A DNA stretch of 51,299 bases from Bacillota bacterium. GTDB lineage: Bacteria > Bacillota > UBA4882 > UBA10575. A program made the translations under genes and the position numbers. Positions 20,055 to 50,873 of the stretch are shown here, piece by piece. The notes beneath the pieces are model-generated. The model was not told the DNA's origin and made no database searches. It saw nothing but the letters and a program-made list of their open reading frames with translations. Position 1 is the first letter of the stretch; each line of letters opens with the position of its first letter. Location of the stretch: assembly GCA_012838955.1 (NCBI GenBank), contig DUOH01000036.1, forward strand, positions 1 through 51,299. The letters are read 5' to 3'.

Positions 20055-20083
20055 TTGACATCTGGAAAGCCATATTTTACAAT
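20055..20083 (+). promoter_or_regulatory. Consensus promoter of the TetR/ABC operon
   Basis: TTGACA at 20055-20060 and TACAAT at 20078-20083 are separated by 17 nt. It lies about 90 nt before the TetR start codon, and the operator palindrome begins 10 nt after the -10 box. Confidence 0.8.
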
Positions 20084-20093
20084 ATGACTAGAG

Positions 20094-20121
20094 ATTCATA
20101 TGAATGTGAATTCACATTCAT
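20094..20121 (+). promoter_or_regulatory. TetR operator: overlapping palindromes
   Basis: A perfect 22-bp palindrome spans 20100-20121 (half-site ATGAATGTGAA). It overlaps a 12-bp palindrome ATTCATATGAAT at 20094-20105. Position over the transcription start implies autorepression by the TetR protein encoded just downstream, and so control of the whole ABC/LolA-like/barrel operon if co-transcribed. Confidence 0.75.
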
Positions 20122-20173: not shown

Positions 20174-20788
20174 ATGCCAAAGGATACTTTCTTTAATTTG
20201 CCCGAGGAGAAGCGGGAGCGGATTATTGAGGCGGCCATTGACGAGTTTGCCACGCACCCTTTTCACCAGGCGCGGGTGACAGCCATCGCCGAGGAGGCGG
20301 GGATCGCGAAGGGCAGTTTTTACCAGTATTTTGAGGATAAGAAGGACCTTTTCAAATACTTGATGGAGCAGATCGTGAGGAAAAAAATGTCCTACATCAA
20401 CCGTGATCTAATAGAAGGTAAAGGAAAATATGGTTTCTTCCAACTCTTACGCGAAGTTTATCTGAGCGGTATCCGGTTTGCCAAGGATAATCCGCGTTTG
20501 GTGCCGATCGGAATTATGCTGATCTCCGATAAGGAATTGTATGGGGAGATCTTCGGGGAGCACGAAGACAAGAGTGTCGATTTTTTCCAGCAGTTGTTGG
20601 AATACGGGAAAGAGCAGGGCGCCGTTTATCCGAAGATCGATTCTGTCCTGGCCGCCAAGATGTTGGCGGGGATGAGTTATACTTTGGTGGACTATGTCTA
20701 TGCCGACGGGAAGTTAGACTTTAATGATATGGAGATCATCGATCAAATGCTCTATATAATCGAAAACGGGATTAAGCAGAAAGAGTGA
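20174..20788 (+). CDS. TetR/AcrR family transcriptional regulator
   Basis: A 204-residue regulator. The N-terminal helix-turn-helix is KRERIIEAAIDEFATHPFHQ followed by ARVTAIAEEAGIAKGSFYQY and FEDKKDLF (residues ~12-58). The rest is the all-helical ligand domain, with the form often seen in regulators of lipid or efflux genes (TetR_C-type ending VDYVYADGKLDFNDMEII). ACGGAGG precedes the ATG. It starts a probable operon with the ABC genes 94 nt later. The ligand is unknown; a lipid or envelope stress signal is plausible by context. Confidence 0.9.
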   Translation: MPKDTFFNLPEEKRERIIEAAIDEFATHPFHQARVTAIAEEAGIAKGSFYQYFEDKKDLFKYLMEQIVRKKMSYINRDLIEGKGKYGFFQLLREVYLSGIRFAKDNPRLVPIGIMLISDKELYGEIFGEHEDKSVDFFQQLLEYGKEQGAVYPKIDSVLAAKMLAGMSYTLVDYVYADGKLDFNDMEIIDQMLYIIENGIKQKE

Positions 20789-20882
20789 CTTCTCGTAGGT
20801 CATGCAAATCCTCGTGCGTGGGTAATTTTACCACCCGAAGAAATTGCGAGCGCCCAGCGAAGAGCTAAGGAGGTTATGAAAG

Positions 20883-21590
20883 ATGGCTTTACTAGAAATG
20901 CAGGGAGTCAAGAAAATCTATGAGCAGGGAAAGATCGAGGTTCCGGCTTTACGCGGGATCGATTTAACGGTGGAGCAGGGGGAGTTCACCACGGTCTTTG
21001 GTCCCTCCGGCTCCGGGAAGACCACCCTCCTGAATATGATTGGTTGCCTGGATAAGCCCACTGCCGGACGGATTGTCTTCGACGGACAAGAGCTGGGCGA
21101 GTTGGACAAAAAAGGCTTGGCGATGCTCAGAAGGCATCATGTGGGATTTATTTTTCAAAGCTATAACCTGATTCCGGTCTTGACCGCCTATGAGAATGTG
21201 GAGTTCGCCCTCAGGTTGCTCAATCGGTATGACCAAAAAGAAGTCAAGGCGCGGGTGCTGAGGATCTTGGCTGCTGTGGGCTTGGCGGGCTTGGAAGATC
21301 GGCGACCCAATGAGCTGTCGGGCGGACAAAAGCAGCGGGTGGCCATCGCCCGGGCCCTGGTTAAAGAGCCAAAATTGGTCCTGGCTGACGAGCCCTCCGC
21401 TAATCTGGACTCCAAGACCAGTGAAGAAGTGCTCCAGGTGATGCTCAAAATGAATCAGGAGCTTGGCACCACCTTCATCTTTTCCACCCATGATCCCCTG
21501 GTCATGAAATACGCCCACCGGCTCATTGAGATCCGTGACGGTCTCATCGCGAAGGACCAAAGGAGGGAGCAGGATGCTGTTCTTAACTAG
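20883..21590 (+). CDS. ABC transporter ATP-binding protein (LolD/MacB type)
   Basis: A 235-residue ATPase of the LolD/MacB/FtsE class. Walker A is GPSGSGKT at residues 40-47, the Q-loop is FQSYNLIP near 91-98, the signature LSGGQ at 145-149, Walker B LVLADE at 165-170, and the switch His is in STHD. It should power the two FtsX-like permeases encoded next, whose first gene overlaps this one by 17 nt. Such mechanotransmission pumps do not move substrate through a pore but extract it from the membrane. AAGGAGG precedes ATG 20883. Confidence 0.92.
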
Positions 21591-22818
21591 ACTGGCCTTT
21601 AAGAATTTGGCCCGGCATAAAAACCGGACTTTGATTACTTCGATCATTATTGCCTTTGCCATCTTCTTTTATATCCTCATGGATTCCCTGGTCGGGGGGA
21701 TGACGGAGATGTCCTATAGTACGCTCATCAACTATGAAATCGGCCACCTGCAAGTGGCGGATCGGCAGTATTGGGCGGAAGAGGAAAAATTAAAGCTGGA
21801 AAACTTATTTACAGTTGATGAGCAGATGATGAAGTCCATCCAGAGCATCCCCGGGTATATAGGCAGCTCACCGGAGTTGGCTTTTTCAGCCCGCCTGAAT
21901 AATGGCAGTGATGAACTGCCGGTCATCGGAAAGGGTGTGCGCTTGGAGGATTTTCAAACGGTCTTTGCTCTGGCAGACCAGTTTGTGGAAGGCTCTTTCT
22001 TCACTCCAGGGGAAGAACAGGCCGTCCTTGGAAAGAGACTGGCTGAGTTGATGGAGTTGGAGGTGGGCGACTACCTCATCCTGGTGGTCAAAGATAAAAA
22101 TGAAACCTTCAATACCATAGAAGCGCAGATTAGTGGTTTGGCGCATACCAGTAATCCAAATGTCAACCAGAATATCGTCTATCTCCCCCTGGACTTGGCA
22201 CAGCAAACTCTGAATGTCGGGGAGCAAGTGAGCAAGGTTGTTATCCGGATGGAGAAAGCGCATACGGCGTCAAGAGTAGCTGCCGAGCTGGAGAAGAAGT
22301 TGAGCGCCGGAGGAGACGCGCGGCTAGGGGTCTATCCCTGGAATGAACTGGAGGCCGTCTCCTTTGTGGAGGCGCAGAAAATTGAGAACCAAGTGATTTT
22401 GGCGATTATCCTCTCCATTGCCGCCATTGCCATCATCAACACAGTCATCTTGGCTGCCTTGGAGAGAAGAGAAGAGATCGGGATGATGAAGGCCATGGGC
22501 TTGCGCAACAGCGAGGTTGTGTATGTCTTTGTCCTGGAATCCACCGGCATTGGGGTCTTGGGCGGAATCATCGGTGTGCTCATGGGGGTCGGCGGTGTCT
22601 GGTTGATGAACACCTATGGTATAGACTTTGAACGCTTATACGGTATGGATCTGGCCTCATTCGGCATGCCGGTCATCGGTAAAGTTTACGGAGTCTGGAA
22701 TCCTTTCTCCTTTGCCAAAGTCGTGGCCTTCGGAATTATCGTCTCTTTTATCTCCAGCGTCTTCCCGGCGTATTGGGCGGCGGATAAAGACCCGGTGCAG
22801 ACGATTTATCATCGCTAG
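21574..22818 (+). CDS. ABC transporter permease (FtsX/LolC/MacB fold)
   Basis: A 414-residue permease with one N-terminal membrane helix (about residues 18-42), a large extracytoplasmic domain (about 43-270, MacB_PCD type) and three C-terminal helices (FtsX domain, about 275-405, with the typical ERREEIGMMKAMGLRNSEV coupling stretch). That topology is shared by LolC/LolE. The start is ATG 21574 with AGGAGGGAG upstream; it overlaps the ATPase gene. Partner of the next gene, with which it likely forms a LolCE-like heterodimer. Confidence 0.9.
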   Translation: MLFLTRLAFKNLARHKNRTLITSIIIAFAIFFYILMDSLVGGMTEMSYSTLINYEIGHLQVADRQYWAEEEKLKLENLFTVDEQMMKSIQSIPGYIGSSPELAFSARLNNGSDELPVIGKGVRLEDFQTVFALADQFVEGSFFTPGEEQAVLGKRLAELMELEVGDYLILVVKDKNETFNTIEAQISGLAHTSNPNVNQNIVYLPLDLAQQTLNVGEQVSKVVIRMEKAHTASRVAAELEKKLSAGGDARLGVYPWNELEAVSFVEAQKIENQVILAIILSIAAIAIINTVILAALERREEIGMMKAMGLRNSEVVYVFVLESTGIGVLGGIIGVLMGVGGVWLMNTYGIDFERLYGMDLASFGMPVIGKVYGVWNPFSFAKVVAFGIIVSFISSVFPAYWAADKDPVQTIYHR

Positions 22819-22834
22819 GGGGGTGTGACGGAAG

Positions 22835-24085
22835 ATGTTATTCCTTACTAAACTGGTTTTTAAGAATCTGTTCCGCAGCAAATCAAGGACGATTGTTTCC
22901 GTGATCGCCATCGCCTTTGCCGTCATGGTCGTGGTTTTTGCCAAGGGATTAATTGATGGGATGATTGAGTCCATCACCGCTGACCATATCTACTATAACT
23001 CCGGCCATATCAAAGTGGTTGACGGGGAGTATCAGAAGCGGGAACGCTTGTTGACTTTGGCTTATCCAGTGGATGGTCTGGCCGGGCAGGGACTTGAGGA
23101 GATGATCTCCTCCCTCCGGAATGTGGAAGGGGTGGAGATGGTTATTCCCAGGCTGAAATTTGGCGCTATGGTCAGTACGGAAGAGGAATTAGTCGCCATG
23201 AGCGGCTGGGGGATTAATCCCGATCAGGAGTTGGCCTTTACCGATATTGAGGATTTGCTGGTAGAGGGAAGGATGGTCACTCCCGGACGGCAGGAAGTGG
23301 TGATGGGTTCCAAACTCCTGGCGAAGCTCGACCGCAGGGTGGGGGATGAGGTAACCATCCTCTTCAATACGGCCTTCGATTCCCTGCGGGGCGTCACCTT
23401 CCGGATCGTCGGACGCCTGGAAACCGGCTTGAAGATCCTGAACGAGCTGGCCTTCTATTTACCTTTGGACCAAGCGCAGCAACTTCTATATATGGATGAT
23501 CAAGTGACCGAATTGTTACTGGTTACCTCTGACAAAAAGCTGGTACCCCAGGTTTTGTCGCGAGTGCAGGCGCTTTTGGCGGAGAGTGACGACCGCTACC
23601 AGGCCTTTGGCTATCGGGAGACCAGTGATTTGATTCCTTTGATGGATTTGTCCGCGGCCATCTTTAATTCCATCTATATTTTTCTGGTTTTGTTATCCTG
23701 TATTGTGGTGATTAATACGATGCTCATGATCGTAAAGGACCGGACGAAAGAGATCGGGATGATGTCCGCCATCGGCTTGGAAAGTAAGAATATTATGCGC
23801 CTTTTTATCTTGGAAGGCGCAGTGATGGGAGTGGCGGGTAGTCTCTGCGGCGCTGCTTTAGGGCATCTGCTCAACATTTACCTGTCCAAAGTCGGTTTTG
23901 ATTATGGCGAGGCTCTGTCCGGGATGAGTTCGGAGGTAATCTTCGACACCATGCTCTATCCGGTCTCTTCACTGAGAAATACCATCTTCGCTTTTGTGCT
24001 GGGCACAGTCGTAGTGACGATCGCTTGTCTCATCCCGGCCCGGCGGGCGGCCCGGCTCGAGCCTACCGAGGCCATGCGGGAATAA
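22835..24085 (+). CDS. ABC transporter permease (FtsX/LolC/MacB fold), second subunit
   Basis: A 416-residue paralogue of the preceding permease with the same 1+3 helix topology and the coupling stretch KDRTKEIGMMSAIGLESKNI. The N-terminal MLFLTKLVFKNLFRSKSRT closely matches the first permease's [19 protein letters not shown], so the two arose by duplication. Two different permeases plus one ATPase is the LolCDE arrangement rather than the MacB homodimer. It starts 17 nt after the first permease, after GGGGGGTG. Confidence 0.9.
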   Translation: MLFLTKLVFKNLFRSKSRTIVSVIAIAFAVMVVVFAKGLIDGMIESITADHIYYNSGHIKVVDGEYQKRERLLTLAYPVDGLAGQGLEEMISSLRNVEGVEMVIPRLKFGAMVSTEEELVAMSGWGINPDQELAFTDIEDLLVEGRMVTPGRQEVVMGSKLLAKLDRRVGDEVTILFNTAFDSLRGVTFRIVGRLETGLKILNELAFYLPLDQAQQLLYMDDQVTELLLVTSDKKLVPQVLSRVQALLAESDDRYQAFGYRETSDLIPLMDLSAAIFNSIYIFLVLLSCIVVINTMLMIVKDRTKEIGMMSAIGLESKNIMRLFILEGAVMGVAGSLCGAALGHLLNIYLSKVGFDYGEALSGMSSEVIFDTMLYPVSSLRNTIFAFVLGTVVVTIACLIPARRAARLEPTEAMRE

Positions 24086-24155
24086 GACCATATTGGGCAG
24101 CCAACAAAGGATGGCCTCAGGTTCACGTCTGAAATTTTATGAAGGGAGTCGGCAC

Positions 24156-24905
24156 ATGATGAAAAAACACCTGTTTTTCTTGGTTGTTTCTGCTTTAGTC
24201 ATCTCGAACTGTGCTGCTTTGGCGCTGGGCGCGCTAACAGCGGAAGAGATCATCAAGCGGCGGGATGATAATGAACATTTCGACACCGCACAGGTAGAGG
24301 CGGAGATGATTATTATCAACAGGAACCGGCGGATCATAAAGACCATGACCACTTACGCCCAGGGAGATAACGGTTTGGTCATCTTCAGCAACCCCCGGGA
24401 TCGAGGCACGAAATTCCTCAAACGTGGAGACGATCTGTGGATGTTCTTTCCGGATGCCGAGGATCTGGTGAAGATCTCCGGGCATATGCTGAATCAAGGG
24501 ATCATGGGCAGTGACTTTTCCTACCAGGATGTGATGGAATCCGACAAGCTGACTGATTTGTACCGGTTTGAACTGATCGGAGAGGAAGAGGTGGAAGGTC
24601 GTCCCTGTTATGTACTGGAAGGGATCGCCAGGGAAGAAAAGAAAGTCTCGTATTACCGGCGGAAATCTTGGATTGACAAAGAAAGGTTCGTCGGTCTCAA
24701 AGAAGAGCTCTACGCCAGGAGCGGACGGTTGTTGAAAGTGATGTACGCCCCAAAAGTGCAGAAGATCGAGGGCCGCTGGTATCCAATGACAGTAGTGATG
24801 GAGGATAAGCTGAGGAAGAACACACGGACAGAGTTTATTGTCAAAGCCATCGAATTTGACCCGCAGATCCCGGCCGGCGCCTTCACCCTGGAGAATTTGA
24901 AGTAG
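24156..24905 (+). CDS. Outer membrane lipoprotein-sorting protein (LolA-like)
   Basis: A 249-residue secreted protein. The signal peptide covers about residues 1-27 (MMKKHLFFLVVSALVIS then CAALALGAL), with likely cleavage near LGA or ALG. The mature domain matches the LolA-like outer membrane lipoprotein-sorting family: the segment FLKRGDDLWMFFPDAEDLVK followed by GIMGSDFSYQDV is characteristic. It should carry a lipid or lipoprotein across the periplasm. The start is ATG 24156 with GAAGGGAG upstream. It follows LolCE-like permeases and precedes a beta-barrel gene; its paralogue is at 31671. Confidence 0.85.
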   Translation: MMKKHLFFLVVSALVISNCAALALGALTAEEIIKRRDDNEHFDTAQVEAEMIIINRNRRIIKTMTTYAQGDNGLVIFSNPRDRGTKFLKRGDDLWMFFPDAEDLVKISGHMLNQGIMGSDFSYQDVMESDKLTDLYRFELIGEEEVEGRPCYVLEGIAREEKKVSYYRRKSWIDKERFVGLKEELYARSGRLLKVMYAPKVQKIEGRWYPMTVVMEDKLRKNTRTEFIVKAIEFDPQIPAGAFTLENLK

Positions 24906-25060
24906 GCGCCGCTCGTTGCGCAAGGATTTGCCTGACGCAAACTTTGTTGTGACGCATTAGTATTCACCACGTGCTCAGACTGGCGAAGGCCATCATTCGC
25001 CATGAATGACGGACGCCCGGTGATGAGTTGTTTCCACTGGTTAAAAGGAGGGTCGCCTTG

Positions 25061-26254
25061 ATGCAAAAAAGGTCAAATCGCTTCACCCCGGTCGGTATAA
25101 TGCTATCACTATGTTTGTCAGCGGTCATGCCGGTGACTCCCGTCTGGGCGGTAGAGGCCGGGGGTGAGATCGAGGTGTCTTTCTCAGGAGCCCTGGCAGA
25201 AGACGGAGATTTCACAGATGACCAATTTGCGGACAGTTTGGACCTGGAATTCTTTCTACCGCCGCTTGGGGAGACCGAGATCAGTTACGCCTTCCGGATC
25301 GGCCATCCGCTGCAGGGCTTGACCGCTGGTAAAGAGGCCTCTTACTTTACGAAGAAACTTTATCTGAGGCGTAAATTTGACCGGTTTCATCTGACCGTCG
25401 GTCGCCAGCCGGTCTCCTGGTCCTTCGGCTCCCTGCTGAACCCGGTGGATTATACCTTGGGGGCGGTGGCCTTGGATGAAGAAAATAACAGCAAATACAC
25501 GGATGCCGTGGAGGTCTATACCCCTTTGAACTGGAACTCCAGCCTTTCGCTGGTCACCTCCTTTCCCGCCGGGTTTGACTTGGAGGCGGAGAAGATGAAG
25601 TGGGGAGTCAGAGGGAGGTTTGGGGTAAAAGGTTACGACCTGACCGTCAACTATGTGCGGGAAGCGGCGGTTCTAGCCGGGGCTGCGGCTGAACTTACGG
25701 GCTTGAGAGAAGCGGGGGGAGCCGTCGGCGACGTAGCGGCGTTGCTGCCCGGTATTCTTCCAAGGCAAAGAGCTGGTTTTGCCTTCAAGGGGGATCTAGG
25801 GGAGATCGGGTTCTATGGCGCTTACGGTCACTATTTCGGTGACGGAGTGGAAAGCAGTAACAGTTATCTGTTAGGGGCGGATTACAGTTATAACCTGAAC
25901 TATAACACCAAAATCACCATGCAACTGGAGTATATAGGAGTGGAGTTGAACTTCTTGGAACCGGCCTACCGGACAGCCCTCTTGAAGCTGGAGAGTGACG
26001 ACGACCGCCTTGATCTCTTGGCCGGGGCCTTCAGCTATCCGGTGGATGACTTCTCCACAGTCTCCCTGATTACTCTGGTCAATCTGGATGACGGCAGCCT
26101 GTTTCTAACCCCCGAATACCAGACCACCTTACCCGGGAATCTGGATCTGACTGTCAATACTACAGTCTTCTTGGGGGGCGGCGGTACCCTCTTGGCCCCC
26201 GGTGACCAACTGCCCCAGGTCACCTTCTGCGTAACACTGAGCTATCCGTTCTAA
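25061..26254 (+). CDS. Outer-membrane beta-barrel protein (porin-like)
   Basis: A 397-residue protein with a signal peptide (about 1-27, ending TPVWA|VEAGG). The mature part alternates polar and hydrophobic residues in many short strands and ends in YPF, the C-terminal Phe typical of BamA-inserted barrels. GRQPVSWSFGSLLNPVDY near 108-125 resembles a motif of DUF1302-type barrels and matches GRIPIGWGTGYAFNP in the barrel at 32552. The start is ATG 25061 with AAAAGGAGG upstream. It is probably the outer-membrane end of the ABC/LolA-like route. Confidence 0.75.
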   Translation: MQKRSNRFTPVGIMLSLCLSAVMPVTPVWAVEAGGEIEVSFSGALAEDGDFTDDQFADSLDLEFFLPPLGETEISYAFRIGHPLQGLTAGKEASYFTKKLYLRRKFDRFHLTVGRQPVSWSFGSLLNPVDYTLGAVALDEENNSKYTDAVEVYTPLNWNSSLSLVTSFPAGFDLEAEKMKWGVRGRFGVKGYDLTVNYVREAAVLAGAAAELTGLREAGGAVGDVAALLPGILPRQRAGFAFKGDLGEIGFYGAYGHYFGDGVESSNSYLLGADYSYNLNYNTKITMQLEYIGVELNFLEPAYRTALLKLESDDDRLDLLAGAFSYPVDDFSTVSLITLVNLDDGSLFLTPEYQTTLPGNLDLTVNTTVFLGGGGTLLAPGDQLPQVTFCVTLSYPF

Positions 26255-26382
26255 TCTTTCCCATTTACCCTTTTATGATCGGCAGGCTTCATATATAATA
26301 AAACATATTATTTTCATTCTATACTGCTCATGCTTACCTTGTTCCTAGTCTATTTACTCGATGAGTTATGAGGTGAGACTTT

Positions 26383-27840
26383 TTGTACCGGAGAAAACCT
26401 TTACTCAGTACAGCTATCTTCTTGGTAATCCTCTTTTTTTCACCATTTATCTTCGAGGTTCAGGCGGGAGAGAATGGCGGCGCCTATGAGATCTTAACCG
26501 ATGCGACTACTGGTGAGGTTTATTATATCCAAAGTTCCGAACGGTTCAAAAAGACGGAAGGGCCGGTAGTCGCTGTGGCGCTGGGGGGCGGAGGGGCCAG
26601 AGCTCTGGTGAACGTGGGAATTCTGAAAGCCCTGGAGGAAGAGGCCATCCCTGTTGATCTGGTGCTTGGTTCCAGTATGGGCGCGATTGTGGCGGTCTTG
26701 TACGGTAGTGGTCTGAGGCCGACCGAGATTGAAGCCTTGGTCACCAGTGATCTCCTGCCCTCCATGTTTGATCTGAATTATCCCTTCATTCGTTCCATCA
26801 TTGACACCAGAAGAGTCAATTTCTTCTTGGAGAGTGTTTCCCCTGTAAAAAGGTTGGAGGATTTCCCAATTCCGACAGCTTTGTTAAGTTATGATCTGGC
26901 CGATGGGGTCAAATACGTTCATACCGCCGGCCCCATCTCTCGGGAGATCCAAGGCTCTTACGCGATTCCCCTCTTCTTTCCGGTGGTAGAATATGACGGC
27001 CTGTATCTGATGGATCCGGGAATTTTGGAGTTGACTCCGGCCCAAACCGCCAAGGTGCTCGGGGCGGATGTAGTCATCTCCACCACCGCTTTTGACGCCT
27101 TGCCCTACGATACATATGACCTGCCTGTTCGCGCTTGGACCAGGTTTATTAATCTCATCAAAGAAGACAACTCCAAGCGGGTTATTGACGAATACTCCGA
27201 TCTGACCATCCATTGTCAGGTGGGGGAGTACTCCTTCATGGACTATCATTTGGCCGGGGAGTTTATTGCTATAGGGTACAGGGAAGCCAAGAAATTGATG
27301 CCTCAGATTAAACAAGTATTGGCCGAAAAGGGGATCCCCCTACGCCCGCCTTTGCCATCCACCCCGGCGGAAACGGGAAATTCTTTGCTCAAGACCGGTG
27401 ATATTTCAGATCTGAACAGAGTAATCAGTGATGTCAAAGCCGATCGCTTGCTCTATGACTTTACCCGGCTCAAACCCCTGCTTTATTTCGGCAAAGAACA
27501 CTCTGTCTTTAAACAGAGACTCTTACCGGAAGAGTGCGTCACTCTCCAGTATGGGATCTTTTTTCAACATAAGAATACGGAAATACAGGTCTTGACCGGG
27601 GGAGGAAAGCCCCGCGCTCTCGAGGCGCAACTCCGGTTTATCCGGCTAACGCCGACCTTTGATCTGATCAGCAGGCTATATCGGCAGGAACAAGCTGGCG
27701 GTGGCAACCGGCAGGGTTCCGGGGTGGCCTGTGAATTGAACCTCTTGGGGATCAAACCTTTCAGCTTCGGTGGGTACTTCGCTTACGATCTGGCCGCAGA
27801 GACCTGGAGGAGCTCGCTCACTTTCGACCTGGTCTTTTAG
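26383..27840 (+). CDS. Secreted patatin-like phospholipase
   Basis: A 485-residue protein. The signal peptide is about residues 1-28 (ending FEVQA). The patatin domain spans about 62-310: oxyanion loop GGGGAR at 68-73, nucleophile GSSMG with Ser98, and dyad Asp211 in MDPG (usually DGG or DGA). It should hydrolyse lipid acyl esters in the periplasm or at the outer membrane. The last ~120 residues are strand-like and end in LVF, recalling the barrel tail of PlpD-type (type Vd) patatins, but too short for a full 16-strand barrel. The start is TTG 26383 with GAGGTGAG upstream. It follows the barrel gene by about 130 nt. Confidence 0.85.
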   Translation: MYRRKPLLSTAIFLVILFFSPFIFEVQAGENGGAYEILTDATTGEVYYIQSSERFKKTEGPVVAVALGGGGARALVNVGILKALEEEAIPVDLVLGSSMGAIVAVLYGSGLRPTEIEALVTSDLLPSMFDLNYPFIRSIIDTRRVNFFLESVSPVKRLEDFPIPTALLSYDLADGVKYVHTAGPISREIQGSYAIPLFFPVVEYDGLYLMDPGILELTPAQTAKVLGADVVISTTAFDALPYDTYDLPVRAWTRFINLIKEDNSKRVIDEYSDLTIHCQVGEYSFMDYHLAGEFIAIGYREAKKLMPQIKQVLAEKGIPLRPPLPSTPAETGNSLLKTGDISDLNRVISDVKADRLLYDFTRLKPLLYFGKEHSVFKQRLLPEECVTLQYGIFFQHKNTEIQVLTGGGKPRALEAQLRFIRLTPTFDLISRLYRQEQAGGGNRQGSGVACELNLLGIKPFSFGGYFAYDLAAETWRSSLTFDLVF

Positions 27841-27936
27841 TTTCATTTTGTTATAGAATCGTCCATAGTTTTCATAACCACGTCGGCGTAAAGGCTATAT
27901 CTACGCTTCAAGGCGTTGGTAGATTTTATAAAGATA

Positions 27937-27968
27937 AAAAGCCCTTCGCTTATCGAGCGAGGGGTTTT
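27937..27968 (+). terminator. Rho-independent terminator after the patatin gene
   Basis: AAAGCCCTTCGCT (27938-27950) pairs with AGCGAGGGGTTT (27956-27967) over about 12 bp with two G-T pairs, ending in TTTT. It separates the ABC/LolA-like unit from the MMPL unit. Confidence 0.75.
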
Positions 27969-28078
27969 CACCATGCTTCCCATTCCACAAGCTCCAATCC
28001 GCCAGCGGCAGGAGAAAGAAGAATATTTTTAGTGTAAATAAAAGAAAAACCTTTATGCAAAACAATTGGTAGTCTTGC

Positions 28079-28107
28079 TTGACAGAGGGCCAAGAATGTG
28101 TTATTAT
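28079..28107 (+). promoter_or_regulatory. Consensus promoter of the second TetR gene
   Basis: TTGACA at 28079-28084 and TATTAT at 28102-28107 are separated by 17 nt. The operator begins 3 nt later. Confidence 0.8.
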
Positions 28108-28110
28108 TAG

Positions 28111-28124
28111 ACCGATCGTTCGGT
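28111..28124 (+). promoter_or_regulatory. TetR operator upstream of the second tetR gene
   Basis: ACCGATCGTTCGGT carries 5-bp inverted arms (ACCGA/TCGGT) around TCGT, directly after the -10 box. The sequence is typical of TetR-family sites and implies autorepression. A related CGAACG-containing palindrome lies before the MMPL gene. Confidence 0.7.
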
Positions 28125-28173
28125 AAAATAAATTAGGTATTAGGTTTTCGTGTAAAAGGTGGTATTGAGGTTT

Positions 28174-28785
28174 ATGGATGACAAAAGGATCAAACGGACG
28201 GAGACCAGAGAACGAATTCTCGAGGAGAGCGCGAAACTTTTCGCGGAAAAAGGGTACAGCGCCACCGGGATCGATGAGATTGCCAAGAATGTTGGGATCA
28301 CAAAGTCTGTGATCTATTATCATTTTAAGAATAAAGAAGATATTCTGCAGACCCTAATTGATGAAGCCTTTGCTCAAATGCTCCAACCGGAGATTAATGA
28401 AGCACATAAGCGCTTCCATGAAACAGGGGAACAGCTTCCAGAGGTAATGGGGTTGATGCAATTTTTAGGAACAGAGCGAAACCGGCGGATCATTAAGATT
28501 ATCTTCATGGAATCACTGAAGGACCAGACCGCGTCTGTTCCTTTGTTTGAAATTTGGGATCATAGTCTGGCGCTCCACCGGGATTTTGGCGAAAATCAGC
28601 TTGAAAAATGGCTGAACGACAATCCCCGTAGGAAGGTGGAGGTTTTTTTCCTATTTCTCCTTCCGTTGCTTTCCTTTTTTATCTTTCGTGACCGGTGGTG
28701 TGACCGCTATAAGCTTAGCCCGGAAGAGGCTTGGAACGCTTTGAGTACCGGACTGATGGAATATTTTTATCCAAAGTTATCTTAG
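28174..28785 (+). CDS. TetR/AcrR family transcriptional regulator
   Basis: A 203-residue regulator. The helix-turn-helix is TRERILEESAKLFAEKGYSA then TGIDEIAKNVGITKSVIYYH (residues ~10-55). The C-terminal domain is helical and unlike the first TetR's, so they are not recent duplicates. I prefer ATG 28174, with AAGGTGG 11 nt upstream, over GTG 28159, which lacks a spaced site. It is followed by the MMPL operon, which has its own operator, so it probably represses both itself and the transporter. Confidence 0.88.
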   Translation: MDDKRIKRTETRERILEESAKLFAEKGYSATGIDEIAKNVGITKSVIYYHFKNKEDILQTLIDEAFAQMLQPEINEAHKRFHETGEQLPEVMGLMQFLGTERNRRIIKIIFMESLKDQTASVPLFEIWDHSLALHRDFGENQLEKWLNDNPRRKVEVFFLFLLPLLSFFIFRDRWCDRYKLSPEEAWNALSTGLMEYFYPKLS

Positions 28786-28824
28786 GGACCTGGGCGGGAA
28801 CGCCTATTCTTTTTTTTCATAAAA

Positions 28825-28844
28825 TAGATCGAACGTTCTATATA
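28825..28844 (+). promoter_or_regulatory. Second TetR-type operator, before the MMPL gene
   Basis: A 20-bp imperfect palindrome (8 of 10 pairs match) has a perfect GAACGTTC core at 28831-28838. It overlaps TATATA at 28841-28846, a possible -10 box. The core resembles the site before the tetR gene, suggesting one regulator for both. Confidence 0.6.
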
Positions 28845-28874
28845 TAAGACGGATAAAAGGAGGTTTTGACTGTA

Positions 28875-31634
28875 ATGGGCAAGTTTTGGAGTGGGGTAGC
28901 TGAATTTGTGCTCAAGCATCATAAAGGAATTGTTCTGGCGACCGTTATTTTGGTGGCGCTAAGTATCATCTCCGCCGGAAATATTCAGGTAACCACAAAG
29001 ATGAAGGATATGTTGCCTGCCGACAATCCCCAAGTGCAAATGATGGATGAGATTGATCAGCACTTCTCCGGAGGAACTTCGCTCTTCATCATCGTTGATG
29101 GCAATGATCGGGAAGCGATGGTGGCTTGCGCTGAGGCCTTGGTGGCAGAGATAGAATCCAGGGCCGAGCTTCGGGAGTACATAAGGACGATCAATCTGAA
29201 ACTGGACAAAGACTTCGTTACCCGGTGGGGATTATTATTACAAGATACAGAGGATCTGGCCGACTTAAAAGCCCGCTTCACACAGGTTAATTTCTTACCT
29301 TTTCTAACCGCGGTGAATGATTCCTTTGAAGAGACCTACATTGAAAATTCCGATGAAGAACTCTCTACGAGCAAGCAGGAGAACGAGGCCGTGGCAATGC
29401 TCGGGGGGATGGAGACCTTCTTTACTCTACTACGGGATTACTTAAGCAACCCGGAGGTGACACCCCTTCCGGAACAAGGGAGGAGACTGGCAGAAAGCTT
29501 TATCCTCGGCGATGCTTACGCTTTCAGCCCGGATAACTCGATGCTGATCTTTACCGTGACCCCTGAGTTTGCCATTGATGATTTTGCGATCCTGGTGAAG
29601 TTTATGGACGGAATTAAGGAAGTGATCGAGCTGGTACAGGGGGACTATCCTCAGCTTGTGATCGGGTATACGGGTGACGTCGCCATCCAAGCAGATGAAC
29701 AGTACGCCCTCCGCTTTGACATGTTGGTCCCGTCATTAGTGGCGCTGGGCGTAATCTTCCTTCTCTTTCTCTTTTCCATCCAACCATTCCGGGCGATGCT
29801 CTTTTCCTTGCTCAGCTTAGTGGTGGGGATTATCCTCAATTACGGGATCATCGGGATTACCCTGCGGGAAATTAATATGCTCACCAGTACGCTAGGGGCG
29901 CTGCTCATCGGGTTGGGGATTGACTATGGGATTCAATTTGTGACAAATTTTAGTCTCTACCGAAAGGAGGGGCGCTCCCCCGCTGATGCGCTCCGCTTTA
30001 CATACACTAAGACGGGCATGGGGACCCTTTTAGCAGCACTGACAACGGCGTTGGGCTTTTTTGTGATGGCGTTGACCGGTTCCGAATCCTTGTCCGAGTA
30101 TGGGATCATTGCCGGGATTGGCATTATCACTTGTTTTGTGGCGATGTTTCTGTTTTTACCGGCGCTGCTGTACTGGTTCGGGAAGAAGGCGCCGACCCAG
30201 TCCTGCCTTCCAGTAGTTGAGTATGGATTCTTAGTTGATCTGGGCTTGTTAATACAGAAGAACCGGATTGCTGTCTTGGTGGTAGGCGCGTTCCTCACTG
30301 GTCTCCTCTTTTTCACCATGTTTCAAAACAAGATTGACCTAGACTTAATGGCGCTGGAACCCCAAGAGATGCCGTCAATCAAAGGCTACTACAAGGTGAT
30401 GGATGGATACGGTCTCTCTCCCCTTTCGGCCTTGGCGGTGGCAACCTCCTTGGATGAAGCGCGGGCTTTAACGAAGAAGCTCGAAGCAGAGCATTACATC
30501 GCCCAAGTTGAATCCCTGGCTACTTATCTACCAACACCGGAAGAACAGGAGGAACGATTGGCTGCGATCAAAGAGATCCGGGAAATGGGCCGACGTTACC
30601 AGGAGCTTTTCTATACACCCGCCGATCTCGGGCGCTTTGCCGAAGAGGTTCAACGCCTGGAGTGGAATATCATTGAAATCGGCGACCTCTCCGTGGCCGG
30701 TTTAGGTGAGAGTAATAAGATTGTGCAAAAGCGTGACCATATGATCCGGGAGATCCTCGGCGCGGAGACCGGCCGACCGGGGCAGGAAGTATTCCAAAAG
30801 CTGATCGGTCTCCTGAAAGCAGATCCAGTGCTCTATGCCGACCGGCTCAGTCGCTTAGATGCGCATTTTGCCCGCGCGATGGACGCCCTCATCGCCCAAA
30901 TGGCGGCAGTAGAAAGGCTGATTACTGTTGACGACCTACCGGAGGAGGTTCGTGACCAGTTACTGAGCGCCGACGGAACACGAAATTTGATCATGGCTTA
31001 TCCGCAGCAATCAATTATGAGTAGGGAAAACGGGCTCCGCCGTTTTGCCGAACGCATGGCGGAGATCTCCCCGCGCATTACGGGCATGGCGATGGTGGCG
31101 GTTTCTTGGTTGGAAGAGATCATGAACGGCACCGTCAAAGCCGGGGTCTATATTTTCCTCGCCGTCTTTCTCTTGCTCCTTTTATCCATGAAGAGCCTCC
31201 GGAGATCTTTATTGGCTCTAGTACCGCTTACCGCAGGAATGATCTGGATGTTGGGTCTCCATCCTTTACTGGGCTGGCGGGTGAATATGGTTAACATCGC
31301 CGTCATTCCGCTGGTTATTGGCATGGGGATTGACTACGGTGTGCACATTGTGCAGCGCTTTACAGTGGAGAGTGAAGATATCCGCGCCGTCTTTCGGTAT
31401 ACAGGTAAAGCCTTACTTCTTTCCGCGCTCACCACGATGATTGGCTTTGGTTCGTTGGGCTTGATCGGTTCATTTGCCGGGGTTGCCTCCATTGGTTCAA
31501 TCCTCTTTCTCGGGATTACTACTAGCATAGTGGCGGCGCTGGTTCTTACTCCAGCTCTGTTGAGTTTGGGGCGAAAATTAATGACTGGACAAATAACAAC
31601 AGCGAAGGAGTTGGAAGAGACTAAAAGCATATGA
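28875..31634 (+). CDS. MMPL/RND family transporter
   Basis: A 919-residue RND-superfamily exporter of the MMPL/HpnN type. Helix 1 is near residues 20-38, followed by a first periplasmic loop to about 265, five helices (to ~435), helix 7 (~460), a second long loop (with coiled-coil-like EEQEERLAAIKEIREMGRRY) and a final five-helix bundle. LLIGLGIDYGIQFVTNF in the first half and VIGMGIDYGVHIVQRF in the second carry the proton-relay Asp-Tyr pairs seen in MmpL proteins. Such pumps move lipids to the outer leaflet or periplasm without a membrane-fusion partner. The start is ATG 28875, 11 nt after AAAGGAGG. Confidence 0.92.
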   Translation: MGKFWSGVAEFVLKHHKGIVLATVILVALSIISAGNIQVTTKMKDMLPADNPQVQMMDEIDQHFSGGTSLFIIVDGNDREAMVACAEALVAEIESRAELREYIRTINLKLDKDFVTRWGLLLQDTEDLADLKARFTQVNFLPFLTAVNDSFEETYIENSDEELSTSKQENEAVAMLGGMETFFTLLRDYLSNPEVTPLPEQGRRLAESFILGDAYAFSPDNSMLIFTVTPEFAIDDFAILVKFMDGIKEVIELVQGDYPQLVIGYTGDVAIQADEQYALRFDMLVPSLVALGVIFLLFLFSIQPFRAMLFSLLSLVVGIILNYGIIGITLREINMLTSTLGALLIGLGIDYGIQFVTNFSLYRKEGRSPADALRFTYTKTGMGTLLAALTTALGFFVMALTGSESLSEYGIIAGIGIITCFVAMFLFLPALLYWFGKKAPTQSCLPVVEYGFLVDLGLLIQKNRIAVLVVGAFLTGLLFFTMFQNKIDLDLMALEPQEMPSIKGYYKVMDGYGLSPLSALAVATSLDEARALTKKLEAEHYIAQVESLATYLPTPEEQEERLAAIKEIREMGRRYQELFYTPADLGRFAEEVQRLEWNIIEIGDLSVAGLGESNKIVQKRDHMIREILGAETGRPGQEVFQKLIGLLKADPVLYADRLSRLDAHFARAMDALIAQMAAVERLITVDDLPEEVRDQLLSADGTRNLIMAYPQQSIMSRENGLRRFAERMAEISPRITGMAMVAVSWLEEIMNGTVKAGVYIFLAVFLLLLLSMKSLRRSLLALVPLTAGMIWMLGLHPLLGWRVNMVNIAVIPLVIGMGIDYGVHIVQRFTVESEDIRAVFRYTGKALLLSALTTMIGFGSLGLIGSFAGVASIGSILFLGITTSIVAALVLTPALLSLGRKLMTGQITTAKELEETKSI

Positions 31635-31670
31635 AGATGAATATAAGAAAAAGGTGAGGAGGAGATTGTC

Positions 31671-32417
31671 GTGAAGAAAAATCGGTTCTTCCTGGCTATG
31701 CTGGCGCTTGGGGTATTTATGGGCGGTTTAGTTCTGGCAGCACAGGAAGACGCGGTGACCATTCTCCGCCGCGTCGAGGAGAAACAAGCGACGGAAACAA
31801 GTGTTTCCCAGATGGGGATGTTTATATACCCGGACGCCGGCGCTGACGACTACAGAAGCTTCGAGGTGGTAGGGTACGCCAAAGGCGATGAAGACGAATA
31901 TATATCATTTATTGAGCCACGGAGTATCAAGGGCTTGACGATCCTTTCTAAAGGCGACGACCAATGGATCTATTTCCCCTCCACCGGCCGGGTCCGGAAG
32001 ATTGCCAGTAAATCTAAGGACCAATCCATTCAGGGAGTAGGCGGCGACTTCTCTTATGAGGACTTAAGCGCCGGTAAATGGGAAGAAAAATATGACTTTA
32101 TCATTGTCAACACTACGGAACAACAATGGGTTTTAGCGGGGACGCCAAAAAAAGAATCATCCTATTCAAAGGTTAATTTAGTCATTGACCAGGAAAAACT
32201 GATGATCAGTAAGGTCGAGTATTATAAAGAGGAAGAAGGGCACTTTAAGGACTTGATTATGGAGGAGATCAAAGTACTTGATGGCCGCGAAACCGCCACT
32301 CGGATGACGATGATAAATTACACAAAGAACAGTAAGACAGTGATTGTCATAAACAACGCCAAGTATGATATAGAAATTGACGACAAGTACTTCAACCCGA
32401 CCCGTTTTTACCGCTAA
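31671..32417 (+). CDS. Outer membrane lipoprotein-sorting protein (LolA-like)
   Basis: A 248-residue secreted protein with a signal peptide at about 1-24 (ending GLVLAAQ). KGDDQWIYFPSTGRVRKI then GGDFSYEDL is the LolA-like family signature and lines up with the matching stretch in the protein at 24156; both keep GDD-W-FP and DFSY-D. It starts 37 nt after the MMPL gene at GTG 31671 with GAGGAGGAG upstream. It is probably the periplasmic acceptor for what the MMPL pump exports. Confidence 0.85.
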   Translation: MKKNRFFLAMLALGVFMGGLVLAAQEDAVTILRRVEEKQATETSVSQMGMFIYPDAGADDYRSFEVVGYAKGDEDEYISFIEPRSIKGLTILSKGDDQWIYFPSTGRVRKIASKSKDQSIQGVGGDFSYEDLSAGKWEEKYDFIIVNTTEQQWVLAGTPKKESSYSKVNLVIDQEKLMISKVEYYKEEEGHFKDLIMEEIKVLDGRETATRMTMINYTKNSKTVIVINNAKYDIEIDDKYFNPTRFYR

Positions 32418-32493
32418 GAGGTTGCACACACTGGCTGCCAAGTCGCTTATGTTGACAATCATACACACGAGCGACGAGTAACGAGTATCAAGC

Positions 32494-32535
32494 GATGAGA
32501 GGTATTCTCTGGCGGATGGTCGGAAGCCTCTCATC
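32494..32535 (+). other. Inverted repeat just upstream of the barrel gene
   Basis: GATGAGAGG (32494-32502) and CCTCTCATC (32527-32535) are exact complements around a 24-nt loop. The right arm ends about 4 nt before the AAAGGAGG ribosome binding site of the barrel gene. It could moderate translation or stability between the LolA-like and barrel genes. Confidence 0.4.
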
Positions 32536-32551
32536 TGAAAGGAGGTAAATC

Positions 32552-33814
32552 ATGAAAAATTCTGTTCTGGCGTTGGCGCTCAGCCTTCTTCTCTTACTAT
32601 TTCCAGGCATTTCCATGGTTTTGGCGCAGGACACAACAGGTTTGGCGGGACTCAAGACCGAACAAGTGAGTCTGTATGGATATATCCTGCACTATTTAAA
32701 CTTGACCGCAGATGATATTGGCAACATCTTTTATTTTCGGTTGAAAGGTGATTGGTACCCCGGCCCGAACCTCTTCTTCCATATGGAACTGGATACTGAT
32801 TACCGCACCGGAAACCAGCACCCCGCTTATTTATCAACCCTATTATCAGGTTCAACAAGTGATAATCATTCTGGCGCCGGGGATCAATTAAACCTTAAAG
32901 TCGATCACCTTTGGGGTATGGTTAATCTGGGGAAGATGGACATCCAATTCGGAAGAATTCCTATTGGGTGGGGTACGGGTTATGCCTTTAATCCGACGGC
33001 AAAGACCCATCCTGGCTCCTTCTTGGACGATCTTCCCGAAGAAACACCGGGCACCCTTGGGATCTCCTCCGGCTACTCCCTTAATGATAGCACCGCCTTC
33101 CAGTTTTATTTGGCCTTTGAAGATAAGACGCGTACCCAAAGACCCGAGGCGGGAGAGTGGGACCGGATTCCTTTTGGTATAAAAGTACAGAAAATTTGGG
33201 GCGCCTTTGATTTCTCCTTCAGCTGGATTAAAGAAGTGTCTTATTGGCCGGGAGTCCATGTTTATCATCGAGAATACTATCTCGGCAGTGATTTTGTTGG
33301 CGCGGTGGGGGATTTCGGCGTTTATGGCGAGGCGGTGCTTAATGTACCCCGGAATGAAGATGGGCGATTCGACATCTCCGGGCGTCGGACCAAAGATTTG
33401 CTGGAGTACTGCGTGGGCGGAGATTATATTTTCTCCCATGCTGATCTGACGCTCCGGATGGAGTACTACCATCAAGGGCGGGGCGTGACCAACAAAGCCG
33501 ATTATGATTTAATGGGAGGACTATCCACCGGCCAGGCGCTTCAGGCTGAGGATTATTTGCTCGTTGCTTTGGAAAAAATCTTCCTCAATTACTACACATT
33601 TACGTTTGGGACTTTCATCAACTGCAATGACGGCAGCTTTATTTTGATACCGGAACTAAACTATAATGCCGCCGACAACCTAGAGATGGTCGCGGGTTTA
33701 GTGGCGCCTTGCGGAGAAAAAGGCAGTGAATTTAATGGAACTTGGGATATGGGTGGACGCAAAGTCGAATTAATACAACCATCCATCTATCTACAGGCCA
33801 AACTTAGCTTCTAG
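32552..33814 (+). CDS. Outer-membrane beta-barrel protein (porin-like)
   Basis: A 420-residue protein with a signal peptide (about 1-25, LLLLLFPGISMVLA|Q). The mature part is made of amphipathic strands and ends LQAKLSF with a terminal Phe. GRIPIGWGTGYAFNP near 132-146 parallels the GRQPVSWSFG-LLNP motif of the barrel at 25061, so the two are distant relatives. AAAGGAGG precedes ATG 32552. It completes the MMPL/LolA-like/barrel set. A role as lipid acceptor or export channel is inferred, not shown. Confidence 0.75.
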   Translation: MKNSVLALALSLLLLLFPGISMVLAQDTTGLAGLKTEQVSLYGYILHYLNLTADDIGNIFYFRLKGDWYPGPNLFFHMELDTDYRTGNQHPAYLSTLLSGSTSDNHSGAGDQLNLKVDHLWGMVNLGKMDIQFGRIPIGWGTGYAFNPTAKTHPGSFLDDLPEETPGTLGISSGYSLNDSTAFQFYLAFEDKTRTQRPEAGEWDRIPFGIKVQKIWGAFDFSFSWIKEVSYWPGVHVYHREYYLGSDFVGAVGDFGVYGEAVLNVPRNEDGRFDISGRRTKDLLEYCVGGDYIFSHADLTLRMEYYHQGRGVTNKADYDLMGGLSTGQALQAEDYLLVALEKIFLNYYTFTFGTFINCNDGSFILIPELNYNAADNLEMVAGLVAPCGEKGSEFNGTWDMGGRKVELIQPSIYLQAKLSF

Positions 33815-34368: not shown

Positions 34369-35361
34369 ATGTTGTCCAAAAAGAGAAGTGCGTTTATTTT
34401 AATCTGCGTCTTGGCGCTGCTCATGGTAGTCAGTTGTACAGGATTAGCGGCAAAAACAATCAAGGCCAAGGTGGCTCATTTGGCGCCGACCAATGATCCG
34501 CGGCATGAGTCTCTGGTTAAATTTGTAGAACTGGTGAAAGAAAAGTCGAATGGGCGGATTCAGCTGACGATCTATCCCAACTCAACTCTGGGCAGCGAGC
34601 GGGAGTTGTTTGAACAGTTACAAGCCGGGGTAACCGAGTTTGCTTTAGTCGGCAATATTCTCGGTAACTTTGTGCCAGAATTCAGCTGTCTGGGACTGCC
34701 GTTTTTCTGGCGGGATTATGATCATCAACAAGCGGTTGTGATGGGTTCAATCGGCAAACCATGGCGGGATGAGCTGGTTAATAAGTTTGGGGTCGGGCTG
34801 TTCGCCATCTTTAAGCGTAACCCGCGTATCCTGGTCAATACGAAAAGACCCGTAACCAAGCTTGAAGATGTGAAGGGAATGAAGGTCCGGGTGCCGGAGT
34901 TGCCGATGTCAATGAGGACTTGGCGGGCGTTTGGGGTTCAACCGACTCCGATGCCGACCAGTGAGTTTTATATGGGTTTGAGGTTAGGAATCATCGATGC
35001 CATGGAAAATCCGGTGGAGGTCATGTATAACTGGAAGATCTGGGAAGTTGCCAAATACTTGTCCAAGACCGAACATGAGCTGAACTCCTTTGTCTTTATT
35101 TATAGCAACAGATTTATGAAGTCTCTTTCCCCGGCAGATCAAAAACTGGTTAAAGAAGCGGCCGCTGAAGCCCAAGCTTATTATGACGGCCTGATGGCAG
35201 ATATGGCTGCGTTCTGCTATGCGGAACTGGAGAAGAACGGGATGATCATTAACGAGGTTGACAAGAGCGGATTTATCGCCGCCTCCAGGGAAGTGCATGA
35301 AGACTTCAAGAAGAGCATTGGAACGGAAACCTTCAATAAAATAGTTGAACTGGGAAAGTAA
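34369..35361 (+). CDS. dctP: TRAP transporter substrate-binding protein DctP
   Basis: A 330-residue extracytoplasmic binding protein. Residues 1-28 form a signal sequence; VVSC at 20-23 could act as a lipobox, making it a lipoprotein, otherwise cleavage is after GLAA. Arg174 in KGMKVRVPE is the invariant carboxylate-binding arginine of DctP proteins. GNILGNFVPEFSCLGLPFFW and GVQPTPMPTSEFYMGL are also typical. It captures an organic acid for the DctQM permease. GGGAGG precedes the ATG. The neighbours (HMG-CoA reductase and lyase) suggest mevalonate as ligand; this is inference. Confidence 0.92.
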   Translation: MLSKKRSAFILICVLALLMVVSCTGLAAKTIKAKVAHLAPTNDPRHESLVKFVELVKEKSNGRIQLTIYPNSTLGSERELFEQLQAGVTEFALVGNILGNFVPEFSCLGLPFFWRDYDHQQAVVMGSIGKPWRDELVNKFGVGLFAIFKRNPRILVNTKRPVTKLEDVKGMKVRVPELPMSMRTWRAFGVQPTPMPTSEFYMGLRLGIIDAMENPVEVMYNWKIWEVAKYLSKTEHELNSFVFIYSNRFMKSLSPADQKLVKEAAAEAQAYYDGLMADMAAFCYAELEKNGMIINEVDKSGFIAASREVHEDFKKSIGTETFNKIVELGK

Positions 35362-35463
35362 AGAGAAACGCAACGGAACAAAGAACAAACTAAGTCGATA
35401 GGGGCCTGAGCCGACACCGGCTCAGGTCCGCAGTCGACCCCGGATTAATTCGGAGGTGAAAGA

Positions 35464-35928
35464 ATGAGGCTGGCGAGAACACTGAAAAAAACATACTACT
35501 GGTTACTGGTGGCCATCTTCCTCGTTATGCTTGTCTCAACAGGTCTGCAAGTTATTTTCCGGTACTTTCTTGGCTACCCCCTGGGCTGGACGGAAGAGTT
35601 GTCCAAGATCATGTTTATTTGGGCCGCTTTTCTAACGGTGGGCGCCTTAACCATTGAGGAACAATTAATGAGGATCGATATATTGGTGGAGAGGTTGCCC
35701 GCTGGTTTGGCACACATCTTAGAAATTGTGGTGAAATTCTGTTCCGGAGTCTTCCTGCTTTGGCTGGCCGTATTGGGTGTACGATTATTGGATCTGACGA
35801 AACATCAGGTTTCTACCGCCTTACAGATCCCATATTGGCTTATTTATCTTAGTCTACCGTTGGGCATGATTATAGCCAGTGGTGTCATGTTTACCCAATC
35901 ATTTGCCGCAGTTAAGAGAAAGAGATAA
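35464..35928 (+). CDS. dctQ: TRAP transporter small permease DctQ
   Basis: A 154-residue protein with four membrane helices, the standard DctQ size. LQVIFRYFLGYPLGWTEELS then KIMFIWAAFLTVGA is the family signature. CGGAGGTG precedes ATG 35464. It pairs with DctM encoded 12 nt downstream. Confidence 0.92.
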   Translation: MRLARTLKKTYYWLLVAIFLVMLVSTGLQVIFRYFLGYPLGWTEELSKIMFIWAAFLTVGALTIEEQLMRIDILVERLPAGLAHILEIVVKFCSGVFLLWLAVLGVRLLDLTKHQVSTALQIPYWLIYLSLPLGMIIASGVMFTQSFAAVKRKR

Positions 35929-35940
35929 AGGGGTGCAAAA

Positions 35941-37212: not shown

Positions 37213-37265
37213 TCTACGCCTGACTTAATCAAGTACTAAAACCAGTCATTGGGAGGAGGCTACTC

Positions 37266-38300: not shown

Positions 38301-38384
38301 ACCTTTTGGAGCAGTACGGAAGCACCCGTATGCTTGTGCTTTGGAGGGCGGAGGGTTTACTAAAGGGCAAAAGGAGATTGAATC

Positions 38385-39257: not shown

Positions 39258-39303
39258 CAGAAAAACGGTTCTGGCAATGAATACGCAAAGGAGGGAACTA
39301 CTT

Positions 39304-49531: not shown

Positions 49532-49533
49532 GT

Positions 49534-49932
49534 TTGAAACTTGATTGGTTAAATGAGTTTTCCGATCCATATTTAAAATCCACAAGCGGACAGGGGGTGC
49601 TTTTAAGCGGGATTATTTTAGGGATGATAGCGAAATATCAGGTAAGTAAAGAGGAAGAAATAGATTCAGCTCCAATGTTCAAGCAGCTTATGTTTGGGAA
49701 AATGCAAAGACGTGATTTGTTAAGACACTTAAGCCGGGTACCTGAATTAATTAGGGCATACGATATTCCTTACAAAAATTTATTAGAAAAGCTGTCCGGG
49801 AAAGCAGGAGATTTGCTGCTAAAGGGAACAGCGGAAATGGGTGTCGATGGGAACTTTGCTTTTTCTGTTGCTTTTCTAAATGCATCGGAGTATTTTTGGC
49901 GTATTTTTGGCAAGTCGGAAATTGGAGAATAA
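49534..49932 (+). CDS. Separate Cascade small subunit, Cas11b-like (C-terminal part of Cas8b)
   Basis: A 132-residue mostly helical protein. VLLSGIILGMIAKYQ near residues 21-36 and the late NFAFSVAFLNASEYFWRIFG resemble the C-terminal region of one-piece Cas8b/Csh1, which also yields the Cas11b small subunit from an internal start in other type I-B systems. Here it is a separate gene with its own GGGAGGG site and TTG start 2 nt after the cas8b stop. I infer that it is the small subunit; sequence alone does not prove it. Confidence 0.65.
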   Translation: MKLDWLNEFSDPYLKSTSGQGVLLSGIILGMIAKYQVSKEEEIDSAPMFKQLMFGKMQRRDLLRHLSRVPELIRAYDIPYKNLLEKLSGKAGDLLLKGTAEMGVDGNFAFSVAFLNASEYFWRIFGKSEIGE

Positions 49933-50868: not shown

Positions 50869-50873
50869 CTTTA

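Follow-up and report, generated by a model that had tools for sequence, protein, structure and literature searches.

The window analyzed here is a stretch of 51,299 nucleotides from a member of the Bacillota (GCA_012838955.1, lineage UBA10575); it is contig C22 (DUOH01000036.1) of a 2.52-Mb assembly that is 98% complete, and all positions below refer to this whole stretch. It contains two operons, with all features on the + strand, in which a TetR-family regulator, an inner-membrane motor, a periplasmic LolA-like protein of the PF17131 family and a predicted outer-membrane β-barrel follow one another. A sequence-only reading had described them as parallel envelope-transport operons of the same layout with a swapped motor and a barrel where LolB would be; the named genes are all present, in position and identity, and three start sites have been refined. 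Operon 1 (20174–27840) starts with the regulator (20174–20788; PF00440, 52.7 bits), followed by a LolD/MacB-type ATP-binding cassette (ABC) ATPase (20883–21590; PF00005), two LolC/E-type (type VII ABC) permeases with FtsX and MacB_PCD domains (21574–22818 and 22835–24085), the LolA-like protein (24156–24905; PF17131, 200.4 bits for a Pfam gathering cut-off of 30), the DUF1302-like barrel (25061–26254; family profile A1, C-terminal F) and, as the last gene, a secreted patatin-like lipase (26383–27840; PF01734, 76.9 bits). The best NCBIfam model for the ATPase is LolD (TIGR02211), with 222.8 bits for a cut-off of 307.75, and the permeases likewise remain below the cut-off of 362 of the lolCE model TIGR02212 (123 and 149 bits, respectively). 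The reading frame of permease 1 is open from 21526, its start being most likely the ATG at 21574 that follows AGGAGGGAGCAGG; that of the LolA-like protein is open from 24093, with a likely start at 24156 or 24159, and that of the barrel from 25028, with a likely start at 25061.

Operon 2 (28159–33814) is composed of a regulator (28159–28785; PF00440, 61.4 bits), a pump of the MMPL family within the resistance-nodulation-division (RND) type, HAE3 and HpnN-like, of 922 amino acids (28866–31634; PF03176, 119.8 bits), a LolA-like protein (31671–32417; PF17131, 157.6 bits for the same cut-off of 30) and a predicted DUF1302-like barrel (32552–33814; family profile A1, 312 bits). The pump, which is 86% identical to a protein of a metagenome assembly of a "Hydrogenispora sp." (Bacillota), scores 380 bits on HpnN (TIGR03480, cut-off 751.85), 221 bits on the BstA model and 202.8 bits on HAE3 (TIGR00921, cut-off 351.9), in each case below the cut-off. 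The two LolA-like proteins are homologous (26% identity across 254 columns, BLASTP E=9e-19), both match DUF1329, one of them above the cut-off, and solved structures homologous to that of operon 1 can be found (4z48, 3bk5, 9tp6, and 3buu). The two barrels are homologous as well (BLASTP E=7e-7 over about 300 columns) and fall into one profile family. Shared motifs that the sequence-only reading had named, GDD-W--FP and DFSY-D in the LolA-like proteins and GR-P--W-----NP in the barrels, are real, the barrel motif reading GRQxxxWGxGxxxNPTD as a consensus of 52 relatives, with an invariant G. Neither barrel is matched by PF06980 (DUF1302) itself; the family profile aligns with a Prevotella barrel (hhalign 99.7%, E=3.5e-25; hidden Markov model search E=4e-44) that is a DUF1302 protein by Pfam (PF06980, 51.3 bits for a cut-off of 23.2). 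Profile searches of the PDB gave weak matches, namely a "50 kDa outer membrane protein" (10aw, E=7e-6, about a quarter of the profile) and TodX (E=0.03), neither of which is used as functional evidence.

Each operon is preceded by a control region of its own. That of operon 1 (20055–20121) harbors a promoter-like TTGACA-17-TACAAT at 20055–20083 and, 3′ of it, a perfect 22-bp palindrome, ATGAATGTGAA/TTCACATTCAT, at 20100–20121; that of operon 2 (28079–28124) harbors TTGACA-17-TATTAT at 28079–28107 and a different palindrome, GACCGATCGTTCGGT, at 28110–28124. Since promoter-like sites, taken together, do not exceed the number expected from shuffled sequence, the weight of the case lies on position and palindrome. 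The palindromes are candidate TetR operators, and the two operons look separately switched, each with its own promoter and palindrome.

The arrangement is not confined to the window. PF17131 occurs four times in the genome, each time between a motor and a barrel; the two further modules lie on contigs C38 and C15 and both have ABC motors, one with longer permeases (locus L009) and the other with a single permease (L010). The four strong matches of the barrel profile in the genome are exactly the four barrels adjoining LolA-like genes, and two marginal matches lie elsewhere. Among 63 LolA-like loci sampled from the family, class and phylum, a motor is adjacent at 60 (39 ABC and 21 MMPL), the other three being truncated or partial, and a barrel of one family is found at 57; of the six without, three are at contig ends, one has a partial LolA-like gene, and two (L082 and L084) are true exceptions. 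The comparison of gene order across relatives that had been proposed for this locus thus finds the genes kept together, and since nearly all PF17131 loci of the family and class show the same layout, chance does not account for it. Moreover, pairwise distances in the LolA-like and barrel trees are correlated (r=0.85 for 55 pairs, reached in none of 1500 permutations). All 21 MMPL-linked LolA-like proteins form a single clade (Shimodaira-Hasegawa-like approximate likelihood ratio test, 90) beside an ABC clade that contains operon 1, so that the motor has changed about once. In the tree of the barrels, those of operon 2 lie nearer to those of operon 1 than to the remaining MMPL-linked ones, at a modest support of 89, so that the barrels may have a history not identical to that of the LolA-like proteins. 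The LolA-like protein and the barrel are a conserved unit, and it is the inner-membrane motor that is swapped between ABC and MMPL. The patatin, which had been proposed to edit lipids as part of the system, does not share this conservation: no recognizable relative is present at the other 62 loci, and it is a downstream passenger of operon 1, not a conserved part of the module. Its sequence extends about 250 residues beyond the catalytic domain and terminates with F, and this C-terminal tail may be an outer-membrane anchor.

The module can also be found in other phyla. By tblastn against plasmid and chromid records, 11 loci were reached in Fusobacteriota, Bacteroidota, and Pseudomonadota (Haliovirga, Ilyobacter, Prevotella, two in Persicobacter, Vibrio, Photobacterium, Pseudoalteromonas, Sulfitobacter, Thalassospira, and Paraburkholderia), all of which have a motor (7 MMPL and 4 ABC), a LolA-like gene and a barrel, the barrel of Pseudoalteromonas lying on the opposite strand. 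These barrels are matched, with E-values from 1e-12 to 1e-44, by a profile built solely from Bacillota barrels. Each of the two motor versions is represented in Bacteroidota and in Pseudomonadota, and the MMPL version in Fusobacteriota as well. When the 11 loci are added to the tree, the LolA-like proteins group by motor across phyla, with at most two motor changes versus 15–27 with shuffled labels, and monophyly of the MMPL-linked proteins is not rejected (approximately unbiased test, p-AU 0.57). Because the module and the same motor split are present across phyla, the swap is either ancient or has been moved by transfer, and the earlier proposal that a diderm Bacillota lineage evolved the system does not hold.

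With regard to the host, whole-genome checks were made by searches family by family. The genome encodes LpxC and four Omp85 proteins, so that an outer membrane of the lipopolysaccharide type is to be expected, as the sequence-only reading had supposed in assigning the DNA to a diderm member of the Bacillota. Canonical LolA (PF03548) is missing from this genome and from every genome of the same family, the Escherichia coli control being positive; no Lnt match exceeds the cut-off in 29 genomes, the weak matches in the window genome being to a 305-aa frame; and no squalene-hopene cyclase (PF13243) is found in the window genome. Across 299 genomes of the phylum, Omp85 is present in all 55 genomes with full-length PF17131, and full-length PF17131 is present in none of the 223 genomes without Omp85 (Fisher p=5e-43, a value inflated by kinship of the genomes); despite this kinship, the lack of any exception is informative. 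Full-length PF17131 is missing from 21 genomes with Omp85, and in a genome of the same order (G016) LpxC and Omp85 are present without PF17131, which indicates that an outer membrane can do without the module.

Several described systems share parts with the two operons. In Castellaniella, deletion of AmeABCD, which comprises RND, DUF1329 and DUF1302 proteins, lowers tolerance to monoterpenes and increases influx of Nile Red (PMC6394551). Growth of Pseudomonas putida on Tween 20 requires PP_0765/0766 together with PP_2018/2019, and the DUF1302 and DUF1329 proteins are predicted to bind each other (PMC10866462). As in these cassettes of Castellaniella defragrans and P. putida, an HAE3-type RND pump adjoins a LolA-superfamily periplasmic protein in operon 2, next to a barrel whose family profile matches a DUF1302 protein, and an MMPL pump is found at 21 of the 63 loci; at the level of its predicted parts, the MMPL form belongs with the Ame-type cassettes. 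Unlike in those cassettes, the carriers of the window are PF17131 rather than DUF1329 proteins and the motor of operon 1 is ABC; neither window operon has a further gene of the size and place of AmeC (COG4447). In the searched, incomplete literature, no description was found of the form combining an ABC motor, a LolA-like protein and a barrel, nor of a single ancient motor split. Operon 1 resembles LolCDE-LolA-LolB in its LolD, its two LolC/E-type permeases and its LolA-superfamily carrier; it differs in that its parts score below the curated cut-offs in a genome devoid of PF03548 LolA and of Lnt above the cut-off, that a dedicated barrel takes the place of LolB, and that several locally regulated copies exist. 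The operon 2 pump scores best on the models of the hopanoid and sterol transporters HpnN and BstA, albeit below both cut-offs, and has no BstB or BstC genes beside it; hopanoid export, suggested by the HpnN score, was rejected for want of a hopene cyclase in the genome. TOL_3187 of the gammaproteobacterium Thalassolituus oleivorans, a published MMPL-LolA fusion induced together with its porin on the n-C28 alkane, is mirrored at one relative's locus (L077, genome G012), where MMPL and LolA-like domains are fused in one 1044-aa protein, an assembly or sequencing error being possible. TOL_3187 likewise has a neighboring porin lacking a known domain, whereas the MMPL and LolA-like proteins of the window are separate; TOL_3187 is linked to growth on the n-C28 alkane. 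In E. coli, YbbAP-TesA links a type VII ABC system extracting hydrophobic molecules to a lipid hydrolase, as operon 1 ends with a secreted patatin-type lipase; however, TesA is a GDSL enzyme, its permease has ten helices, neither a LolA-like protein nor a barrel takes part, and the patatin link is found in this window alone.

Taken together, we consider it probable (about 0.62) that both operons encode a modular, inducible system that exports lipids or small hydrophobic molecules across the envelope, a reading in which contacts, direction, cargo class and ligand control are what we infer. It builds on what the comparisons above show, namely the gene content, the one-to-one pairing of LolA-like protein and barrel, their common history, the exchange of the motor, the strict tie to an outer membrane, and the recurrence of the module in other phyla. 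The motor (for operon 1, a LolCDE-like type VII ABC system; for operon 2, an RND pump of the MMPL/HAE3 type) would load the PF17131 LolA-like chaperone, which would ferry its cargo through the periplasm and dock on a DUF1302-like barrel dedicated to it. Standing where LolB would be, this barrel would release the cargo, either into the outer membrane or through it, and each operon would be switched by its own TetR repressor, presumably via a cognate ligand. This path from motor through shuttle to barrel is suggested by the Ame cassette, the P. putida set, the fusions and the biosynthetic clusters in which modules are found. Contact between motor and chaperone is suggested by the existence of MMPL-LolA fusions (L077 and TOL_3187). 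A small hydrophobic cargo is suggested by the location of modules in biosynthetic clusters, one per motor type: the MMPL module of Sulfitobacter adjoins a type I polyketide synthase, and the ABC module of Paraburkholderia lies within a cluster with acyltransferase, cytochrome P450 and phosphopantetheinyl transferase genes. A number of observations speak against such export. L082 and L084 have no recognized barrel next to them, and the genome of L082 (G017, same class) has an MMPL-LolA-like pair and Omp85 with no match to the barrel family anywhere; the phenotypes on Tween 20 and n-C28 alkane are equally compatible with uptake; PF17131 matches occur in three archaeal control genomes, so that the LolA-like family is not bound to outer membranes everywhere; and AlphaFold2, run on the operon 2 barrel with a three-sequence alignment, gave no usable fold (predicted local distance difference test score 36.8). 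G017, which also lacks LpxC, may be a natural example of barrel loss.

Import is an unlikely alternative, in which the barrel would take up hydrophobic nutrients such as fatty acids, alkanes or sterols, the LolA-like protein would carry them inward, and the motor would energize uptake or clear the carrier. The need for PP_0765/0766 and PP_2018/2019 during growth on Tween 20 (PMC10866462), the induction of TOL_3187 and its porin on n-C28 alkane, and the weak similarity of the barrel profile to TodX, an uptake channel of the FadL family, would all fit, but type VII ABC and RND motors are known, from the literature (PMC12646458) and generally, as extractors or exporters, AmeABCD behaves like an efflux system (PMC6394551), and two modules are located in biosynthetic clusters. 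Control by TetR is, in addition, typical of efflux. Still less probable is sorting of lipoproteins, with the ABC version as the Lol system of the lineage and the barrel either replacing LolB or flipping lipoproteins to the surface. The LolD- and LolC/E-type components and the LolA-superfamily carrier are those that such a system needs, another sorter is required in a genome without canonical LolA if outer-membrane lipoproteins exist, and a Lol system has been proposed for Halanaerobiales from LolA and LolCDE (Antunes et al., PMC5007114). Yet the same LolA-like/barrel unit pairs with an MMPL pump, the modules are multi-copy, vary in number and are under TetR or two-component control, canonical LolA is missing throughout the family and Lnt above the cut-off is missing too, the LolD and LolC/E scores are far below the LolCDE equivalog cut-offs, and G016 dispenses with the module while keeping LpxC and Omp85. 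MMPL pumps, moreover, are known to handle lipids and small amphiphiles. Lipoprotein cargo is therefore disfavored by the MMPL swap, the missing LolA and Lnt, the multi-copy, locally regulated operons and the low LolCDE scores; what has been published on related systems deals with terpenes, Tween 20, long alkanes or iron starvation. Of the "lipid or lipoprotein routes" proposed from the sequence, the lipoprotein part is thus unsupported while a lipid or other hydrophobic cargo is retained.

The least likely explanation is traffic linked to iron or heme, in which at least the version with TetR, MMPL, LolA-like protein and barrel would move a siderophore, a porphyrin or a lipid needed under iron starvation. 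When iron or hemin is low, operons of Porphyromonas gingivalis and Prevotella intermedia that are annotated as TetR, MMPL, "outer membrane lipoprotein-sorting protein" and hypothetical proteins rank with the most strongly induced genes, and ABC ATPases lie near them (PMC10434189; PMC10470040); some mycobacterial MmpL pumps export siderophores (PMC12803245). The strong induction of these matching operons makes an iron-linked cargo possible for the MMPL form. Against this, no siderophore, heme or iron genes were noted in the surroundings of the two window operons, the pump of operon 2, with 922 amino acids, belongs to the longer, HpnN-like type, unlike the 805-aa pump of Prevotella, and the ABC modules show no link to iron or heme. 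Pairs of ABC half-exporters of 600 amino acids near MMPL modules (L052, L069, and L072) recall the Prevotella operons; they are divergent and lie near a LacI gene, and no claim is based on them.

Carrier and barrel pair almost one to one, their trees mirror each other, and the motor is exchanged; the prediction from this is that carrier and barrel recognize each other and the cargo, the motor being replaceable. "Outer membrane lipoprotein-sorting protein" is the database name given to PF17131 members in many phyla; we argue that, in this setting of motor and barrel, the name points to the wrong cargo, PF17131 being the partner of a dedicated barrel and of one or the other of two unrelated motors. 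More tentatively, and at somewhat less than even odds, PF17131 and the DUF1302-like barrel could form a general "shuttle and gate" cassette, independent of the type of motor and driven by a LolCDE-like ABC system or an MMPL pump, that exports lipids or lipid-like products to the outer membrane. Older than several phyla or spread among them, it would provide a lipoprotein-independent trans-envelope route alongside Lol, Lpt, and Mla. In diderm Bacillota without LolA, this LolA-like/barrel cassette may be a main lipoprotein-independent route. Direct ways toward the cargo are offered by how many modules a genome has, by their switches of the TetR or two-component type, and by the two modules located in biosynthetic clusters.

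Some further observations concern the surroundings of the modules. At L010 (4179–12245), the single-permease module is located behind genes for a response regulator of the NarL type, a histidine kinase resembling LiaS and a tetratricopeptide repeat-like protein, and another possible barrel, of 342 amino acids, comes after it; regulator and kinase are found again at several related loci. In relatives, ExbB/ExbD/TonB-like genes adjoin MMPL modules (L043, 3000–5000; L077, 10600–14700). In the window itself, the stretch 34369–40611 carries genes for a tripartite ATP-independent periplasmic (TRAP) transporter, namely DctP (34369–35361), a probable DctQ (35464–35928) and a probable DctM (35941–37212), then a gene resembling 3-hydroxy-3-methylglutaryl (HMG)-coenzyme A (CoA) lyase (38385–39257) and one for HMG-CoA reductase (39073–40611), and is possibly an operon for uptake and breakdown of mevalonate or HMG. 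The end of the window (48035–51299) carries CRISPR-associated genes, namely those for Cas_TM1802 (Cas8-like; 48035–49531) and Cas7 (49960–50868).

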